Source: an uncultured Gammaproteobacteria bacterium
GTDB lineage: Bacteria > Pseudomonadota > Gammaproteobacteria > Nitrosococcales > Methylophagaceae
NCBI GenBank assembly: GCA_905479075.1
Contig: CAJQLA010000007.1
Span: forward strand, 1-64,000
Direction of reading: 5' to 3'
DNA length: 64,000 nt
Shown: piece by piece, positions 3,835-29,083 of the stretch
Numbering within the stretch: position 1 is the first letter of the stretch
Layout of the letters: the number at the start of each line of letters is the position of its first letter
Translations under genes and position numbers: made by a program
Notes under the pieces: generated by a model
Told to the model about the DNA's origin: nothing
What the model saw: the letters and a program-made list of their open reading frames with translations, nothing else
The model's database searches: none

Positions 3835-3860
3835 ATGTGCGCTTATTTAGGCAAAAATCA

Positions 3861-3945
3861 CACATGCACCGACACAAGTTTCGGGGTGCTAACTGCTCGT
3901 CAGTTTAGTCGATACTTGGGGTGTGTGGAGGTTTAACCCCAATTT
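3861..3945 (+). promoter_or_regulatory. Structured 5' leader of rpsB, probable S2 autoregulatory element
   Basis: Three hairpins can be drawn: GCACC(3866)...GGTGC(3889), AACTG/CAGTT around CTCGT near 3891-3905, and GGGGT(3918-3922)/ACCCC(3936-3940). The last is followed by AATTTTTATT, then by the ribosome binding region AAGG near 3953. In E. coli and relatives, free ribosomal protein S2 represses its own rpsB-tsf mRNA through a conserved leader. The position and structure here fit that, but I cannot check covariation, so the assignment is by context. Confidence 0.55.
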
Positions 3946-21078: not shown

Positions 21079-21082
21079 CTTT

Positions 21083-21421
21083 TTACAAAATACCTTCGTC
21101 GTCAGACATCAGATTATCCAAGTTGCTTAGGTGACCACGAATTTTTTCACGCGTTGACAATTTTTCTCTGGCAGCCAAAGGTAAATCAGTAAATAAAATC
21201 ACTTTTTTATCAATCAGTGTATTGATGAGATCTTCTAATACCCTAACAAGCGCGACGTCGGAAATAGAGAGCACTGCTTTAGCATCTTCAGTTTTAGCTG
21301 ATTGTACAATGAAAGCGGCTAACTCAGGCGAATCAAGTGTAATAAATTCATCGGCGTCGTCTTGAGCCGTTTCATAAACGGCAGTGATTTCACCATTTTC
21401 ATTTCTTCGAATATATGCCAT
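21083..21421 (-). CDS. Conserved small protein of unknown function
   Basis: 112 residues, acidic, with no signal peptide or membrane segment. It begins MAYIRRNENGEITAVYETAQ and has a helical C-terminal half (VALVRVLEDLINTLIDKKV, then LPLAAREKLSTREKIRGHL). I recall gammaproteobacterial proteins of this size and start that were misleadingly labelled tryptophan synthase beta-like; there is no sign of such an enzyme here. AGGA precedes the ATG. It converges with der and is divergent from the secretion locus. Confidence 0.75.
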   Translation of the reverse strand: MAYIRRNENGEITAVYETAQDDADEFITLDSPELAAFIVQSAKTEDAKAVLSISDVALVRVLEDLINTLIDKKVILFTDLPLAAREKLSTREKIRGHLSNLDNLMSDDEGIL

Positions 21422-21551
21422 GTATCAATCCTGACTTATTTTATGGCTGAACAATAACATAAATGATCTCGCTTAGGGTTTACATTAACAACAAAAACTG
21501 TGAAACTCAGCAGTTAAAATGATAAACCATTGAGAAAAAGGGAAATAAGAA

Positions 21552-23711
21552 GTGGCAGAACAACAAGCACAATGGGCAGCTGCTGATAGTCAAAATACAG
21601 TTGATGATCCTTTATTGGGATGTCTCACTGTATTAGCCAAAATTCTTAAAAAACCTCATAGTGCTGACTCTCTAATTGCTGGTTTACCGCTAGTAGATAA
21701 TAAACTAACACCTAAGTTGTTTTCTCGTGCGGCTGAACGAGCGGGCTTATCGGCCAAAGTCGTTGAGAGACGCTTACACAAAATATCTAATTTAATTCTG
21801 CCTGCTATTTTGTTGTTAGAAAATAGCACTTCGTGTGTCTTACTCGAAATGAATAAGACTACTGCTAAAGTTATTTTCCCTGAAACAGGCGAAGGTGAAG
21901 CAGAGATATCAGTTGAAGATTTAAAAGAACAATACACCGGTTTTGCAATATTTATCAAAGCAGTTCATCACTTTGATAATAGAGTCGAAGAAACAACGAT
22001 ACCAAGAACAGGTCATTGGTTTTGGGGAACCATTCTTCGTTTTTGGCCAATTTATGGCGAAGTGTTTTTAGCTTCTATTTTGGTCAATAGTTTTGCCTTG
22101 GCATCCCCTTTATTTATTATGAATGTCTATGACAGGGTGGTGCCAAACCATGCAATAGAAACATTATGGGTGTTAGCGATTGGTGTTGCTACTGTCTTCG
22201 TCTTTGATTTGTTACTTAGGACTTTACGGGGTTATTTTATTGATGTGGCGGGTAAAAAGGCAGATGTGATTTTATCATCCACTATTTTTGAAAAAGTGAT
22301 GGGCGTAAGAATGGAATCACGCTCGAATTCGGTCGGCTCTTTCGCTAATAATATGCACGAATTTGAAAGCTTCCGTGAGTTCTTTACTTCGGCTACTTTG
22401 ACGACAATTATCGATTTACCTTTTGCATTTCTATTTATTTTCGTTATTTGGACAATAGCTGGGAATCTTGCTTTTATACCGCTGGCACTGATTCCTTTAG
22501 GCATCATAGTGAGCCTTATCATTCAGATTCCTTTGGGGCGTACCATTCAGAACTTGTTCAAGCATTCTGGGCAAAAGAGTGCAACTTTAATCGAAACATT
22601 AACGGGTTTAGAGACGATTAAAAGTCTTGGTGCTGAATCGCCAGTACAAAGAAAATGGGAGCAGACGATAGGCTCCATTTCTAGGTACGGTCAGCGCGCT
22701 AGGATATTGTCATCTGCAGCAGTCAATTTTACGACTTTTCTACAGCAAATGGCTACTGTCAGCGTCGTTGTTTTTGGTGTTTATATGATATCGGAAGGTG
22801 ATATCACCATGGGTGCACTTATTGCCAGTACCATACTGACCGGGCGTGCATTAGCACCATTGGGACAGGTGGCTGGAATATTAACCCGTTATCATCAATC
22901 CAAAGCAGCTTTACAATCACTCAATACAATGATGGACTTACCTGTTGAACGTCCTTCTGGTAGAGAATTTTTACACAGACCTCAATTTAAAGGTGGAATT
23001 GAATTTAAAAAAGTCTCTTTCCGTTATCCTGAACAACCGATGGATGCGTTGTCCGAAATTTCATTTTCTATTAAACCAGGTGAAAAAGTCGCCTTTATTG
23101 GCAGAATAGGCTCTGGGAAAAGTTCGATAGAAAAACTCATATTAGGGTTATACGAACCTCAAGATGGCTCCATTTTATTAGATGGAACAGATATCAGACA
23201 AATTGACCCTGCCGATTTAAGACGTAATGTCGGTTATGCACCACAGGATGTTGTACTGTTTTTTGGCAGTATTCGAGACAATATTGCACTGGGAAAACCT
23301 TTTGCTGATGATATGGCAATATTAAAAGCAGCAGAAATTTCTGGTGTAACAGAGTTTGTGAATCGCCATCCTGCAGGTTTTGATATGCCTGTTGGTGAGC
23401 GAGGAGAGGGTTTGTCTGGTGGACAACGGCAAAGTGTCACTATAGCGAGAGCGCTGTTGCTCGACCCCCCCGTTCTAGTGCTTGATGAGCCTACGAATGC
23501 GATGGATAATAGTACTGAAGAACTATTTAAAGCCAAACTTGCTTCTGAATTGGCTGATAAAACCTTGTTGTTAGTGACACATAAAGCATCATTATTGAGT
23601 TTGGTGGATAGAATTATCGTATTAGACAATGCCCGTATTGTTGCTGATGGTCCTAGGGATCAAGTGTTGTCAGCGCTTAAGAAAGGCCATATTAAAGTGT
23701 CAAAAGGATAA
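21552..23711 (+). CDS. Type I secretion ABC exporter with peptidase-like domain (LapB/HlyB type)
   Basis: This inner-membrane exporter powers one-step secretion of a C-terminally tagged protein through a fusion protein and TolC. The order is a C39 peptidase-like domain (about 15-140), a membrane domain with six helices (about 160-450) and an ABC ATPase. Walker A GRIGSGKS is at 517-524, the signature LSGGQ at 621-625, Walker B VLVLDE at 641-646 and the switch His at 677. Cys24 sits in LLGCLTVLAK, but the DCG context of an active C39 peptidase is missing, so it is probably a substrate-docking pseudo-peptidase as in HlyB and LapB. GTG start. No substrate gene is nearby. Confidence 0.93.
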   Translation: MAEQQAQWAAADSQNTVDDPLLGCLTVLAKILKKPHSADSLIAGLPLVDNKLTPKLFSRAAERAGLSAKVVERRLHKISNLILPAILLLENSTSCVLLEMNKTTAKVIFPETGEGEAEISVEDLKEQYTGFAIFIKAVHHFDNRVEETTIPRTGHWFWGTILRFWPIYGEVFLASILVNSFALASPLFIMNVYDRVVPNHAIETLWVLAIGVATVFVFDLLLRTLRGYFIDVAGKKADVILSSTIFEKVMGVRMESRSNSVGSFANNMHEFESFREFFTSATLTTIIDLPFAFLFIFVIWTIAGNLAFIPLALIPLGIIVSLIIQIPLGRTIQNLFKHSGQKSATLIETLTGLETIKSLGAESPVQRKWEQTIGSISRYGQRARILSSAAVNFTTFLQQMATVSVVVFGVYMISEGDITMGALIASTILTGRALAPLGQVAGILTRYHQSKAALQSLNTMMDLPVERPSGREFLHRPQFKGGIEFKKVSFRYPEQPMDALSEISFSIKPGEKVAFIGRIGSGKSSIEKLILGLYEPQDGSILLDGTDIRQIDPADLRRNVGYAPQDVVLFFGSIRDNIALGKPFADDMAILKAAEISGVTEFVNRHPAGFDMPVGERGEGLSGGQRQSVTIARALLLDPPVLVLDEPTNAMDNSTEELFKAKLASELADKTLLLVTHKASLLSLVDRIIVLDNARIVADGPRDQVLSALKKGHIKVSKG

Positions 23712-23716
23712 TCATC

Positions 23717-25048
23717 ATGTTTTGGTCTAGAAAAACACATGTTGATGACGCAGATTATATGTCTGAAATCAGTGCGGCAACGATGGAGTCAGCACATTTT
23801 GGTGGTCATTCATTACTTTTTTTGACAGTGGTATTTTTTATAGTCGCTGGCTGGTGGGCAAATGTCACTAGCTTAGATGAGGTTACTCGTGGCGATGGTA
23901 AAATTGTACCCTCGAGTAAAGTTCAAGTTATCCAGAATCTAGAAGGCGGTATTTTGGCTGATGTCATGATTGCTGAGGGGCAAATTGTTGAAAAAGATCA
24001 GGTGTTACTAAAAATAGACGATACTCGTTTTTCTTCTTCGTTCAGGGAAACAAAACTTAAATATTATGAGTTGTTAGCTCGAAGTGCACGTCTGGAAGCT
24101 GAAAGTGAAGGTGTTGACTTTGTTATTCCTGATGAAGTTATAGAGCATCAGCCAATACTTGCTGTTGATGAAAAAGCATTATATGAATCACGCCAACGGG
24201 AATTGGAATCTACTATTCGAGTATTAAAGCAACAACTTGAACAGAAAAAGCAAGAGCTAGTAGAAAGTAGGGCACGTCAATCGCAGTTGTATCGTAGCTA
24301 TGAACTAAGTAATGAAGAGTTAAAAATGTCAGAGCCTTTAGTTGTTCAAGGTGTTATGTCAAAGGTTGAACTACTGAGATTAAAACGAACCGTGAATGAC
24401 TTGCGTGGTGAAATGAATTCTAATCGTTTGGCTATTCCAAGAATTCAATCTTCTATAGAAGAAGTAACGCAAAAAATAGATGAATTAACAGTTCGTTTTA
24501 AAACAGAGGCAGCGAATCAGTCCTCAGAAGTAAAAGCAGAACTGGCCCGAACGAAAGAGATTGTATTTTCATTGAAAGACCGTGTGACAAGAACACAAGT
24601 ACGTTCCCCGGTGAAAGGAACGATTAAAGTACTCAAAATTAACACTGTCGGTGGTATCATTCAGCCAGGAATGGATTTAGTGGAAATTGTTCCAATAGAG
24701 GACAATTTATTAGTTGAAGCTAAAATAAGGCCTGCGGACATCGCATTTCTAAGGCCAGGACAAGAGGCTATGATCAAGTTAACAGCCTATGACTTTTCAA
24801 TTTACGGTGGTTTACCGGCTAAACTTGAGAGAATCAGTGCAGATACGATAGTGGATGAAAAGGATGAAAGTTTTTACTTAATCTATCTTAGAACGAACAA
24901 AAACTTTATTGAAAGCAGTAAAGGTAGGTTAGAAATTATTCCAGGCATGACGGCAACAGTGGATATTTTGACAGGTAAGAAAACAGTGTTAGATTATTTG
25001 CTTAAACCTATATTAAAAGCAAAGAATGAAGCATTACGTGAACGTTAA
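23717..25048 (+). CDS. Type I secretion membrane fusion protein (HlyD/LapC family)
   Basis: The adaptor links the ABC exporter to the outer-membrane channel. A single membrane helix (about residues 35-52, LLFLTVVFFIVAGWW) is followed by a lipoyl half-motif (VQVIQNLEGGILADVMIAEG), a long periplasmic coiled coil (about 130-290), the second lipoyl half (VRSPVKGTIKVLKINTVGGI) and a beta-barrel domain. At 443 residues it is typical. It starts 5 bases after the exporter stop, so the two are one operon. Confidence 0.95.
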   Translation: MFWSRKTHVDDADYMSEISAATMESAHFGGHSLLFLTVVFFIVAGWWANVTSLDEVTRGDGKIVPSSKVQVIQNLEGGILADVMIAEGQIVEKDQVLLKIDDTRFSSSFRETKLKYYELLARSARLEAESEGVDFVIPDEVIEHQPILAVDEKALYESRQRELESTIRVLKQQLEQKKQELVESRARQSQLYRSYELSNEELKMSEPLVVQGVMSKVELLRLKRTVNDLRGEMNSNRLAIPRIQSSIEEVTQKIDELTVRFKTEAANQSSEVKAELARTKEIVFSLKDRVTRTQVRSPVKGTIKVLKINTVGGIIQPGMDLVEIVPIEDNLLVEAKIRPADIAFLRPGQEAMIKLTAYDFSIYGGLPAKLERISADTIVDEKDESFYLIYLRTNKNFIESSKGRLEIIPGMTATVDILTGKKTVLDYLLKPILKAKNEALRER

Positions 25049-25075
25049 TAATGATAATGGAAAAATGAAACATTC

Positions 25076-25711
25076 ATGACTAAACCGACTATCTATGCAG
25101 TCATTCCTGAACCAGCCTTGCGTGTTTCCGTAGGAACAGGTTTGTCTGACAAGTATGTGATCGAATTTAGTGACAATCTAGATGTTTTGTTCGAACAGCT
25201 TGAAGATAATCAGCCAGATTTGATTTTATGTCATCAAATGTTACTTGAAGAGGATCAATCACTTGTCTTAAGTAGGTTGAAGATTACGAATACAAAAGCG
25301 CAAATTTTAGTTATTGGACCAAGACAGCCTTTAGAAACTCAGATTAAGGCGCTTAAATATGGAGCAAGAGGTTATTTTGACAGTGCCCTCCCCGTCACTA
25401 AGTTAATGAATGCAATAGATGATGTATTACATGGTGAAGTGTGGATAGAAAGGCATGTCATATCAGGCTTGATTGATGAACTTGTTCATGTTCCTGAATT
25501 GACTGAGAAGCAAAGGCTAGGACTCGATTCACTATCGCCAAAAGAACTGGAAGTAGCTAAGTTAGTAAGCCATGGTGCAACTAATAAAATGATAGCGAAT
25601 AAATTAGCCATAGCAGAAAGAACAGTCAAAGCACATTTAACAGCAATATTTCAAAAAATGGCTATTAGTGATCGTTTATCTTTGGCTATATTTTTCCGTG
25701 ATTTAAGGTGA
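25076..25711 (+). CDS. LuxR-type regulator with degenerate receiver domain
   Basis: The C-terminus (about 150-211) is a LuxR/NarL helix-turn-helix: LSPKELEVAKLVSHGATNKM followed by LAIAERTVKAHLTAIFQKM. The N-terminal 120 residues keep the receiver fold (PDLILCHQMLLEED, ALKYGARGYF) but not its chemistry. The phosphoacceptor Asp position is His53, the acidic pair after the first strand is Ile10-Pro11, and the conserved Lys is replaced by Ser103. It is therefore probably not phosphorylated and may respond to a ligand or partner. Its place between the fusion protein and the TolC gene suggests that it regulates this locus or its substrate. Confidence 0.88.
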   Translation: MTKPTIYAVIPEPALRVSVGTGLSDKYVIEFSDNLDVLFEQLEDNQPDLILCHQMLLEEDQSLVLSRLKITNTKAQILVIGPRQPLETQIKALKYGARGYFDSALPVTKLMNAIDDVLHGEVWIERHVISGLIDELVHVPELTEKQRLGLDSLSPKELEVAKLVSHGATNKMIANKLAIAERTVKAHLTAIFQKMAISDRLSLAIFFRDLR

Positions 25712-25839
25712 TGTAGTATTTTAAAAATAACTGTGATATTCTTTTAATACAATCGTTTATAGTGTGTTTTACAGATGGAATATGACTTACTGAAGTTTAA
25801 GAGTTTAGTAGTTAAAAAATAATATAGGATTTGGATAAG

Positions 25840-27183
25840 ATGAAACTTAAACCATTAGCGATCATCATCGCTCTGACTACGGGCTTTTCTACAACGCTCT
25901 CAGCAACAACGCTTCAGGAAGCTGTTGATGCAACTATCAAGACAAATCCAGACGTTCTTGCTGCTAGTAGTGAACGTAGCGCTGTAGCGGAAGAAGTTAA
26001 ACAAGCACGAGCTGGTTATTACCCAACAGTGGACCTTGCCCTCGGCATAGGTTGGGAAGAGTCGGATAACCCAACTACAAGGCCGAATGATACGCCCGCT
26101 AATGATCATAATCACGAAGACTTAGAGCGTGGTGAGGCAAGTTTACAATTACGTCAAATGTTATTTGATGGTATGGCGACAAAAAATGAAGTGACTCGCC
26201 AAAAAGCGAGAACTGACGCACGTTCATACGGTGTATTTAGTTCAGCAGAAAATACAGCTTTAGAAGCAACAAATGCCTATCTCAATGTACTGCGTCGACA
26301 AAAGCTAGTTGATTTGGCCATGACAAACTATGAAGCGCATGAAAGAACGCATGATCAAATCAAACTGCGAAGTGAACGTGGTGTGGGCCGCAGAGCAGAT
26401 AATGACCAAAGTTTAGGTCGCTTGTCGCTTGCTAGATCAAATCTAATTGCAGAGCAAAGCAATCTACGCGATGCTGAAACAGCTTATATAAGAATCGTTG
26501 GCATGGTTCCAGAGGGCTTACAAGACCCAATGTCACCAAGTAGTGTCATTCCTGAAAGTCTTGATGAAGCTATTAGTATCGCTTTAGAAAATCATCCGAC
26601 GCTTAATTCAGCTAAAGCTGATTTAGAATCAGCTCATGCACAACATGAAACAGCATCATCGCCATTTTATCCGCGTGTAGATTTTGAATTGGGTACGACA
26701 GCTGATAATAATATTGATGGCGTAAGAGGTCATAATAAAGATATTACGGCGATGTTCCGATTGAGGTATAACTTACTGAATGGTGGAAGAGACTCAGCCC
26801 GTAAGCAAGAAACGGCTTATTTGATTAATCAAGCTGCTGAAATTCGCAATAACACACACCGTCAAGTAGAAGAAAGTGTCCGTCTTTCATGGAATGCATT
26901 GAAAACGGTTAATAGTCAGATGGATTATTTCAGACAACATGTTGCTTCTAGTGAAAGTTCACGTGATGCATATCAACAGCAATTTGGTTTGGGACAACGT
27001 ACACTTTTAGACTTATTAGATTCTGAAAATGAAGTGTTTTCTTCACGGCAGTCACTCGTAAATGCTGAATATGATCAATTATTTGCGATGTACCGCATCG
27101 TAAATAGTATGGGCTCATTATTGCAAACTATTGATGTTGTTCCACCTGAAACTGCAACAATCATGTCTGCAGAATCAGAATAA
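25840..27183 (+). CDS. TolC-family outer membrane channel of the type I secretion system
   Basis: The protein forms the trimeric outer-membrane and periplasmic tunnel for the exporter. The signal peptide is MKLKPLAIIIALTTGFSTTL with cleavage near LSA, followed by TTLQEAVDATIKTNPDVLAA, the usual TolC start. Two internally similar halves with outer-membrane efflux repeats follow (second half from VIPESLDEAISIALENHPTL). I use ATG 25840, with GGAT upstream, rather than TTG 25831, giving 447 residues. It resembles LapE/AggA-type channels linked to adhesin export. A terminator follows. Confidence 0.93.
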   Translation: MKLKPLAIIIALTTGFSTTLSATTLQEAVDATIKTNPDVLAASSERSAVAEEVKQARAGYYPTVDLALGIGWEESDNPTTRPNDTPANDHNHEDLERGEASLQLRQMLFDGMATKNEVTRQKARTDARSYGVFSSAENTALEATNAYLNVLRRQKLVDLAMTNYEAHERTHDQIKLRSERGVGRRADNDQSLGRLSLARSNLIAEQSNLRDAETAYIRIVGMVPEGLQDPMSPSSVIPESLDEAISIALENHPTLNSAKADLESAHAQHETASSPFYPRVDFELGTTADNNIDGVRGHNKDITAMFRLRYNLLNGGRDSARKQETAYLINQAAEIRNNTHRQVEESVRLSWNALKTVNSQMDYFRQHVASSESSRDAYQQQFGLGQRTLLDLLDSENEVFSSRQSLVNAEYDQLFAMYRIVNSMGSLLQTIDVVPPETATIMSAESE

Positions 27184-27204
27184 ATAAATTTATAAAAGTA
27201 TGCT

Positions 27205-27240
27205 AGCCACGATAATAATTTATTGTCGTGGCTTTTTTTT
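27205..27240 (+). terminator. Rho-independent terminator after the type I secretion operon
   Basis: AGCCACGATAA pairs with TTGTCGTGGCT around a short AT loop, followed by eight T residues. It ends the secretion operon before fabA. Confidence 0.92.
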
Positions 27241-27340
27241 GCCAATAAGACATGATTTATATAAGGATTTTTTCTTGTTTAATCGTGGTCGTGATATCAT
27301 TATCCTCTGCCAACTAAACTAGGTGATAAAAGAGAATTTC

Positions 27341-27856
27341 ATGAGTAAAGAGTCGTCATTTACATACGAACAATTATTAGAGTGTGGTCATGGCCATATG
27401 TTTGGTCCCGGCAATGCGCAATTACCAACGCCAAATATGTTAATGATGGATCGCGTCACTCGTATTGCTAATACGGGAGGGAAGTATGGTAAAGGTGAAA
27501 TTATCGCTGAGCTAGATATTAACCCTGACTTATGGTTCTTTGATTGTCATTTCCCTGGTGACCCGGTTATGCCCGGTTGTCTTGGTCTTGATGCCATGTG
27601 GCAGTTAGTTGGGTTCTTCTTAGCTTGGGATGGTAATCCTGGACGTGGTAGAGCCTTAGGTGCGGGTGAAGTAAAGTTCACTGGGCAGGTTTTACCAACT
27701 GCTAAAAAAGTGACTTATAAACTAGACCTAAAACGGGTTATAGCAAGAAAACTTGTTTTGGCGATTGCTGATGGATCGGTCACTGTCGATGGACGCGAGA
27801 TTTATACAGCTAAAGACCTTCGAGTAGGTCTATTTACTTCTACAGATGATTTTTAG
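27341..27856 (+). CDS. fabA: 3-hydroxydecanoyl-ACP dehydratase/isomerase
   Basis: FabA dehydrates 3-hydroxydecanoyl-ACP and isomerises the product to the cis-3 form, the entry to anaerobic unsaturated fatty acid synthesis. With the ATG at 27341 ([16 protein letters not shown]) the catalytic residues are His70 in [14 protein letters not shown] and Asp84 in LGLDAMWQL, the same numbers as in E. coli, which supports this start over GTG 27323. The protein has 171 residues. fabB follows after 9 bases, the classic fabAB operon. Confidence 0.98.
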
Positions 27857-27865
27857 GACGCAGCG

Positions 27866-29083
27866 ATGAAACGTGTTGTTGTTACAGGTTTAGGAATTAC
27901 ATCATGTCTGGGGCTTGATGCAGATTCAGTTACAGAATCGTTGCGTCATGGTCGTTCTGGCATAAAATTTAAACAAGAATATGCTGACATGGGTTTCCGT
28001 AGTCATATCGCTGGTTCTGTGGATATCGATTTTAAAGAACACATTGATCGTAAAATATTACGTTTTATGGGTGATGCAGCCGCCTATGCGTATATTTCAA
28101 TGAAACAAGCGATCGATGATGCTGGTTTAACAGAGGATCAGGTATCCAATCCAAGAACGGGATTAGTTATGGGTTCTGGTGGTGCATCATCATCAAATCA
28201 AGTTGAAGCAGCTGACATTCTACGTGAAAAGGGGTTACGTCGCGTTGGGCCATATAGAGTCACACAAGTCATGGGAAGCACGACATCAGCTTGTTTAGCG
28301 ACACCATTTAAAATCAAAGGTGTGAATTACTCGATGTCTTCAGCTTGTGCAACCAGTGCTCATTGTATTGGTAATGCGATGGAGCAGATCCAACTTGGTA
28401 AACAAGATATTGTTTTTGCTGGTGGTGCTGAAGAAGAGCATTGGACGATGAGCTCTTTGTTTGATGCTATGGGTGCATTGTCGACTAAATATAATGATAC
28501 GCCTGATAAAGCTTCACGTGCTTATGATGCTGACCGTGATGGTTTTGTTATTGCTGGTGGCGGTGGCGTACTTGTCTTGGAAGAATATGAACATGCTAAG
28601 GCTCGTGGTGCCAAAATTTATGCAGAATTAACAGGTTATGGTGCTACATCAGATGGCTATGACATGGTTGCACCATCCGGAGAAGGCGCAATACGCTGCA
28701 TGAAACAAGCTATCTCGACAGTCAATGCACCAATTGATTATATTAATGCTCATGGTACGAGTACGCCTGTAGGTGATTTGGCTGAACTAGGTGCTGTTAA
28801 GAAAGCTTTCAGTGATACGATTCCTGTTGTAGGTTCAACTAAGTCATTATCTGGACATTCTCTTGGTGCAGCGGGCGTACAAGAAGCGATTTATTGTTTG
28901 TTAATGATGGAAAACGATTTTATAGCCGCTTCGGCCAATATAGATAACTTAGATCCTGAGGCTGCAGGTATACCTATCATTAGAGAACGCAAAGACAATG
29001 CGGGTTTAACAACCGTAATGTCTAATAGCTTCGGCTTTGGTGGAACCAATGCCTGTCTTGTGTTTGAAAAATTAAAAGATTAA
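27866..29083 (+). CDS. fabB: 3-oxoacyl-ACP synthase I
   Basis: FabB elongates unsaturated acyl-ACP made by FabA. The Cys-His-His triad is Cys161 ([10 protein letters not shown]), His296 ([11 protein letters not shown]) and His331 (SGHSLGAAG). The C-terminal [15 protein letters not shown] is the condensing-enzyme signature. The 405 residues match E. coli (406). Confidence 0.98.

Follow-up and report, generated by a model that had tools for sequence, protein, structure and literature searches.

If the receiver domain of a response regulator has lost its phosphorylation site, one may ask what the protein still responds to and what it controls. The question is raised by an open reading frame for 211 residues at positions 25076-25711 (+) of a 64,000-nucleotide stretch of DNA (the window) from an uncultured gammaproteobacterium of the Methylophagaceae. 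The initial annotation had described a LuxR-type regulator with a dead receiver (His53, Ile10-Pro11, Ser103), encoded between the genes for a fusion protein and TolC, and had proposed a dedicated, kinase-independent regulator of secretion or adhesion that senses by other means. The coordinates, frame and residue numbers first given hold.

The product is an atypical NarL/FixJ-type regulator, made of a pseudo-receiver (residues 1-119, approximately), a W-x-E-R helix (120-138) and a LuxR-type HTH (approximately 150-206). The HTH is intact (GerE, 60.8 bits, E 9.6e-17, cut-off 23.5), and Response_reg scores 25.5 bits, below the Pfam cut-off of 30.2 (HMMER). All five residues of the phosphorylation pocket are replaced: in a phmmer alignment with NarL, its acidic pair corresponds to I10-P11, its phospho-Asp to H53, its Lys to S103 and its Thr/Ser to G81, which is absent from the initial annotation. 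An AlphaFold model that used 32 orthologs has a mean pLDDT of 87.6 and strands at residues 5-9, 49-53, 76-81 and 97-102; in this model the five replaced residues fall at the ends of beta1, beta3, beta4 and beta5, where a receiver has its active site. The N-terminal fold is that of NarL/FixJ-type receivers, and alignment of this part with solved receivers (VIA-align) gave a best Z of 19.8 (rmsd 1.4 over 118 residues). The window protein has no Asp at the phosphorylation site. NarL is the best PDB match of the family profile (E 7e-24) and has the same domain order, but it has a complete pocket and no W-x-x-R, the reverse of what is seen here. The protein has none of the acidic pair, Asp, Thr/Ser and Lys that mark a phosphorylatable receiver; pseudo-receivers are defined, in the part of PMC12632262 available, by the lack of any one of these five residues, and here all five are missing. 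From these substitutions, the receiver is predicted to be no longer open to phosphorylation.

Pocket positions were then read in a joint alignment of 34 Methylophagaceae orthologs, 22 secretion-linked relatives and 18 canonical controls (16 from the Methylophagaceae, the FixJ-like one encoded in the window's genome and one from a further gammaproteobacterium). The acidic pair, Thr/Ser81 and Lys103 were missing in 34/34 orthologs. At position 53, 28 orthologs have H, three Q, two D and one E, so that 32/34 are aspartate-less. In the controls, D53, K103, the full acidic pair and T/S81 were each present in 18/18. Since the pocket is missing from all orthologs (the Asp from 32/34) and intact in all controls, its loss appears, on this alignment, to go beyond chance. 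The comparison bears out the dead receiver of the initial annotation, as do the NarL alignment and the model. Among the secretion-linked relatives, the complete acidic pair was missing in 22/22 and the Asp kept in 10, which suggests that loss of the Asp came later than that of the other pocket residues. The two orthologs with Asp53 (L003 and L006) are without the rest of the pocket; they are nested inside the family tree, and their Asp looks secondary.

The gene setting was confirmed as well. Upstream, on the same strand, lie genes for an LssB-type ABC transporter (LapB-like; 21552-23711; TIGR03375, 1016 bits, cut-off 693) and an HlyD-type adaptor (LapC-like; 23717-25048; TIGR01843, 396 bits, cut-off 209), and downstream a gene for a TolC-type outer membrane channel (LapE-like; 25831-27183, with an alternative start ATG at 25840; TIGR01844, 330 bits, cut-off 225). 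All three exceed their NCBIfam cut-offs, as a Lap-type secretion system should. The window's genome (1.92 Mb) also encodes LapD (LapD_MoxY_N, GGDEF, EAL) adjoining LapG (Peptidase_C93) on contig C1; close to the end of contig C8 it has a LapA-type retention module. For this reason the operon is most likely lapB-lapC-regulator-lapE. The adhesin was found via its retention module; T1SS_VCA0849 (TIGR03661) has no match in this genome. Exporter, adaptor, channel, LapD, LapG and retention module of the known LapB-LapC-LapE and LapD-LapG system are thus all matched, and the difference is the regulator gene inside the exporter operon. In the parts available of the literature searched, which was largely without subscription journals, no LuxR-type regulator encoded within a Lap or LssB operon is described. 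Against that literature, the new point would be the tie of an atypical NarL-type regulator to Lap-type secretion; atypical NarL-type regulators as such, VpsT among them, are known. A second Peptidase_C93 (LapG-like) protein of 228 residues is encoded on contig C10 (L115:935-1621), apart from the lapD-lapG pair.

Within the Methylophagaceae the gene keeps its place. One scan of genome contigs gave 33 regulator loci, those with a named genus being Methylophaga; the laboratory strain M. aminisulfidivorans MP carries an ortholog (L022); HlyD is encoded upstream in 32/33 and TolC downstream in 30/33, the four exceptions lying at contig ends. An ortholog is present in 48 of 57 genomes (as is HlyD, 48/57), and in 47 of these 48 it directly follows hlyD on the same strand; the adjacency is missing where the regulator stands at a contig start (G032) or HlyD at a contig end (G045). 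LapG was found in 42/48 genomes with the regulator and 1/9 without (Fisher p 1.5e-5, kinship ignored), and the retention module in 40/48 versus 3/9 (p 0.0045, kinship ignored). Some of these absences fall in incomplete genomes. For the 36 fuller genomes, the proportions were 29/31 versus 1/5 for LapG (p 0.0012) and 28/31 versus 1/5 for the retention module (p 0.0027), kinship again being ignored.

To look outside the family, the 32-ortholog profile was run on 369 Gammaproteobacteria; at E <= 1e-24 it matched 27, of which two belong to the Methylophagaceae. In 29 stretches around the other matches, the regulator was part of an LssB-HlyD cluster in 17 (directly after hlyD in 15) and lay elsewhere in 12. 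A survey of LssB in 228 genomes gave 41 loci above the cut-off, or 39 once two Methylophagaceae loci were dropped; 14/39 contain a related pseudo-receiver and 25/39 are without one, the contig ending before hlyD in two of the 39 (L129 and L142). Neighbour genes were listed for 7 of the 17 clusters. In six, the regulator or its small neighbour is followed by a large open reading frame, each with a LapA retention module; the seventh (L089) has no large retention-module gene beside the regulator. LapD and/or LapG is encoded nearby in L086, L087, L088 and L093. Because these six distant clusters have a retention-module adhesin gene beside the regulator, we conclude that it lies between lapC and lapA in distant lineages. 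The synteny on which the initial annotation depended is therefore present, almost throughout the family and again in 14 of the 39 outside LssB loci. Its proposal of a dedicated secretion or adhesion regulator is partly supported: there is good support for a link to adhesin secretion from the Lap genes of the same genome, the co-occurrence with lapG and the adhesin genes of the six distant loci, whereas control of the operon and sensing by other means stay at the level of proposals. The direction was right and the mechanism is unproven.

If the receiver no longer takes part in phosphotransfer, the parts of the protein that are still constrained may indicate what it does. Compared pairwise, 32 orthologs are on average 27.5% identical over residues 1-75, 56% over 76-119, 80% over 120-138 and 81% over the HTH; the helix is conserved as strongly as the DNA-binding domain. 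In most orthologs the stretch 120-138 contains GEVW[VI]ER. The family profile finds VpsT at E 1e-16 and places its WLTR on this motif, encoded in the window by the codons of W123-I-E-R126 (25442-25453, + strand). W123 and R126, invariant in the 32 aligned orthologs, fall on VpsT W131 and R134, and I133 on I141. In the joint alignment, R126 is found in 34/34 orthologs, position 133 is I in 31 and V in 3, and W123 occurs in 66/67 pseudo-receivers and 0/18 controls. The third motif residue is E in 30 orthologs and K in 4, where VpsT has T; 20 more relatives keep W-x-x-R with P, G, D, Q, K, E or R at this position. The available part of PMC6237807 gives W[FLM][TS]R for the VpsT type; W-[VI]-[EK]-R agrees with it at positions 1 and 4 and not at 2 and 3.

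VpsT of Vibrio cholerae (PDB 3kln, 3klo) resembles the regulator in being an atypical NarL-type protein with a broken pocket, an extra W-x-x-R helix and a hydrophobic dimer residue in register. It differs in keeping the Asp and a T at the third motif position, where the regulator has H and E, and in binding c-di-GMP; the two share about 20% identity and are not firmly placed as one clade. A whole-model Foldseek TM-score of 0.49 for VpsT probably reflects domain orientation and was given no weight. According to the portion available of PMC3359988, VpsT requires R134 to bind c-di-GMP and I141 to form the dimer that c-di-GMP stabilises. In the available text of PMC6237807, QstR of V. cholerae, whose motif is WLPR, dimerises and works at low c-di-GMP, and becomes c-di-GMP-dependent when the T is restored; BrpT of V. 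vulnificus, also WLPR, is likewise c-di-GMP-independent, and both act without phosphorylation. BrpT and the VpsT-type BrpS directly regulate cabABC, the genes for a matrix protein and for its type I secretion, BrpT being an activator (PMC6978666, part available), and in V. cholerae VpsR, VpsT and FlrA have an effect on the large adhesins (PMC6890996, part available). QstR and BrpT share with the regulator a variant third motif residue, P in their case and E here; as far as these sources describe them, their genes lie outside the secretion operon, whereas the present one lies inside. Since the third residue is Glu, or Lys in a few orthologs, and not Thr/Ser, we expect by analogy with WLPR that the regulator does not need c-di-GMP and is set mainly by its amount.

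Taken together, these observations favour, with a probability of roughly 0.55, a phosphorylation-independent pseudo-receiver regulator of the NarL/FixJ type that serves the Lap adhesin system. What remains of the receiver would probably hold the dimer through its beta4-alpha5 part and the W-x-x-R helix that follows, as in VpsT, QstR and BrpT; the intact HTH of the dimer would then bind DNA and adjust how strongly the export operon and/or the adhesin is expressed, without need of c-di-GMP. By analogy with BrpT, BrpS, QstR and VpsT, activity may be set mainly by the amount of protein made, or by some ligand. The computations themselves show the loss of the pocket, the fold, the intact HTH, the place in the operon, the Lap context and the conserved helix; it is the dimer mode, the target genes, the sign of control and the independence from c-di-GMP that we infer. 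Points that count against this reading are the searches below, which revealed no binding site or regulon, the 25 outside exporters that work without the gene, the 12 stretches where the regulator is away from secretion genes, the absence of a firm tree join to VpsT, and the imperfect tie of retention module and LapG to the regulator. Given a dead receiver and the same place among adhesin-export genes in nearly all relatives, the regulator probably controls surface attachment by a route other than phosphorylation; this points to control of adhesins through transcription, in addition to the known control by LapD-LapG. Pseudo-receivers and aspartate-less receivers likewise have a receiver fold without a phospho-Asp or working pocket (PMC12632262, PMC4395418); regulators of the present type, for which the gene neighbourhood is fixed, are not described in the parts of these sources covered. 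How bacterial pseudo-receivers switch remains a mystery according to the available part of a 2025 review (PMC12632262). A group with a fixed neighbourhood, a Lap adhesion context, graded pocket loss and a constrained helix makes the question testable in marine methylotrophs, which are harmless.

A true c-di-GMP receptor of the VpsT kind is an unlikely alternative: c-di-GMP bound at W-x-E-R would bring about the dimer and raise adhesin export, in step with the control of LapG by LapD. The register of W123, R126 and I133 with the VpsT residues speaks for it, as does a LapD with GGDEF and EAL domains in the same genome. The E or K at the third motif position, against T in VpsT, argues the other way, together with the action of QstR and BrpT, which have P there, without c-di-GMP in the text available (PMC6237807). 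The W-x-x-R pair may moreover be structural, since it is kept in the 20 further relatives whatever the third residue.

Somewhat further down in probability, a protein partner (the exporter, unsecreted adhesin or a small receiver-like protein) could control dimerisation or DNA binding, so that expression would be coupled to secretion. This would suit the fixed place in the exporter operon and the constraint on residues 76-138, outside the dead pocket. In some outside loci a small protein of 141-162 residues, which could be such a partner, is encoded beside the regulator (L076:9216-9674, L082:2376-2801, L085:8701-9189). The one in L082 is a receiver-only protein (Response_reg, 49.8 bits); those in L076 and L085 have no Pfam match, and the L076 protein has a W-x-x-R stretch and no HTH. 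Against a partner of this last kind, no small neighbour was seen in the window.

Equally doubtful is the broader reading in which the secretion-linked clade forms a separate family of Lap-locus regulators, with a receiver rebuilt to sense, for example, the state of the exporter or unsecreted adhesin, and neither phosphate nor c-di-GMP; were it true, adhesion would be under secretion-coupled control. A maximum-likelihood tree of 84 rows was made, M_L019, M_L027 and C_L162 having been dropped because of X (alignment A1 is without L019 and L027). The 32 family rows form one clade (support 100/99). One side of a further branch holds 63 of the 84 rows, namely the family, all 22 secretion-linked relatives and 9 of 11 other relatives, with a support of 93/94 that is just below the strong mark; on the opposite side are the canonical regulators, NarL, VpsT and two other relatives. 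VpsT falls outside the secretion-linked group at this same support; because its branch is long, its placement is unsure, and it is not firmly joined to the regulator.

A general regulator of other genes, linked to secretion by gene order or a shared transcript only, is improbable. It would agree with the 12 of 29 stretches in which relatives lie away from secretion genes, and operon-specific binding is itself a prediction; but the near-invariant adjacency to hlyD, the recurrence in LssB loci and the adhesin neighbours of six distant loci are hard to explain in this way. Continued control of the receiver by phosphorylation, at His53 or elsewhere, can practically be set aside, as can decay into a pseudogene, in spite of the Asp53 of two orthologs and 10/22 secretion-linked relatives, as no ortholog of 34 has the complete acidic pair or Lys103, the frames are open and full-length in the 33 loci examined, and the HTH is 81% identical.

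Sequence elements were also sought around the operon. A candidate promoter/operator, TTTACA-N12-ACTGTGA[AC]ACT, lies at 21479-21507 (+), starting 73 bases upstream of the listed ABC gene start; TTTACA followed by CTGTG at about the same spacing precedes the ABC gene in 20/26 loci. Judging by this conservation, the element is probably the promoter of the ABC gene and perhaps an operator. The full block occurs exactly once per genome, at the operon, in 9/9 genomes; with about 17 specified positions no further chance copy is expected, so its single copy means conservation at the operon, not a regulon. A weight matrix gave no second copy at lapA, lapD and RTX loci (best score <=5.4 versus 44.9 at the operon), and a search allowing up to 3 mismatches in 4 genomes returned match counts like those of a reversed-pattern control, with no excess; for these two reasons no regulon was drawn. 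A promoter scan of 21079-27900 (21 sites, 19.2 expected) was uninformative as to whether the regulator or tolC has an internal promoter of its own, and neither it nor the two preceding searches revealed a binding site or regulon of the regulator. In some relatives (L013, for instance) the element, at 21479-21520 in the window, runs into TGTGA-N6-TCACA, which we take to resemble the consensus of a CRP-type site; the second half of the window copy is poor.

The operon probably ends downstream of the TolC gene at a terminator-like hairpin of 13 pairs followed by seven T (27205-27233, +), short of the FabA-family and ketoacyl-synthase-family genes that come next; overall, the scan gave 3 such structures, no more than the 4.6 due to chance. 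The gap between regulator and tolC harbours, in L001, L003, L004, L006-L012 and L024, a hairpin of variable stem with a conserved loop close to TGAGGGG[AC][TC]GCCG[AC]AA; this hairpin may be an RNA element of the tolC leader. It is absent from the window's own gap (25712-25830), and the gap had no Rfam match in the 5 loci searched. The exact loop pattern was found in 8/57 genomes, once in each and always in this gap. Elsewhere in the window, a t44 RNA (RF00127, 75.9 bits) at 3842-3937 is the sole Rfam match at the gathering threshold.
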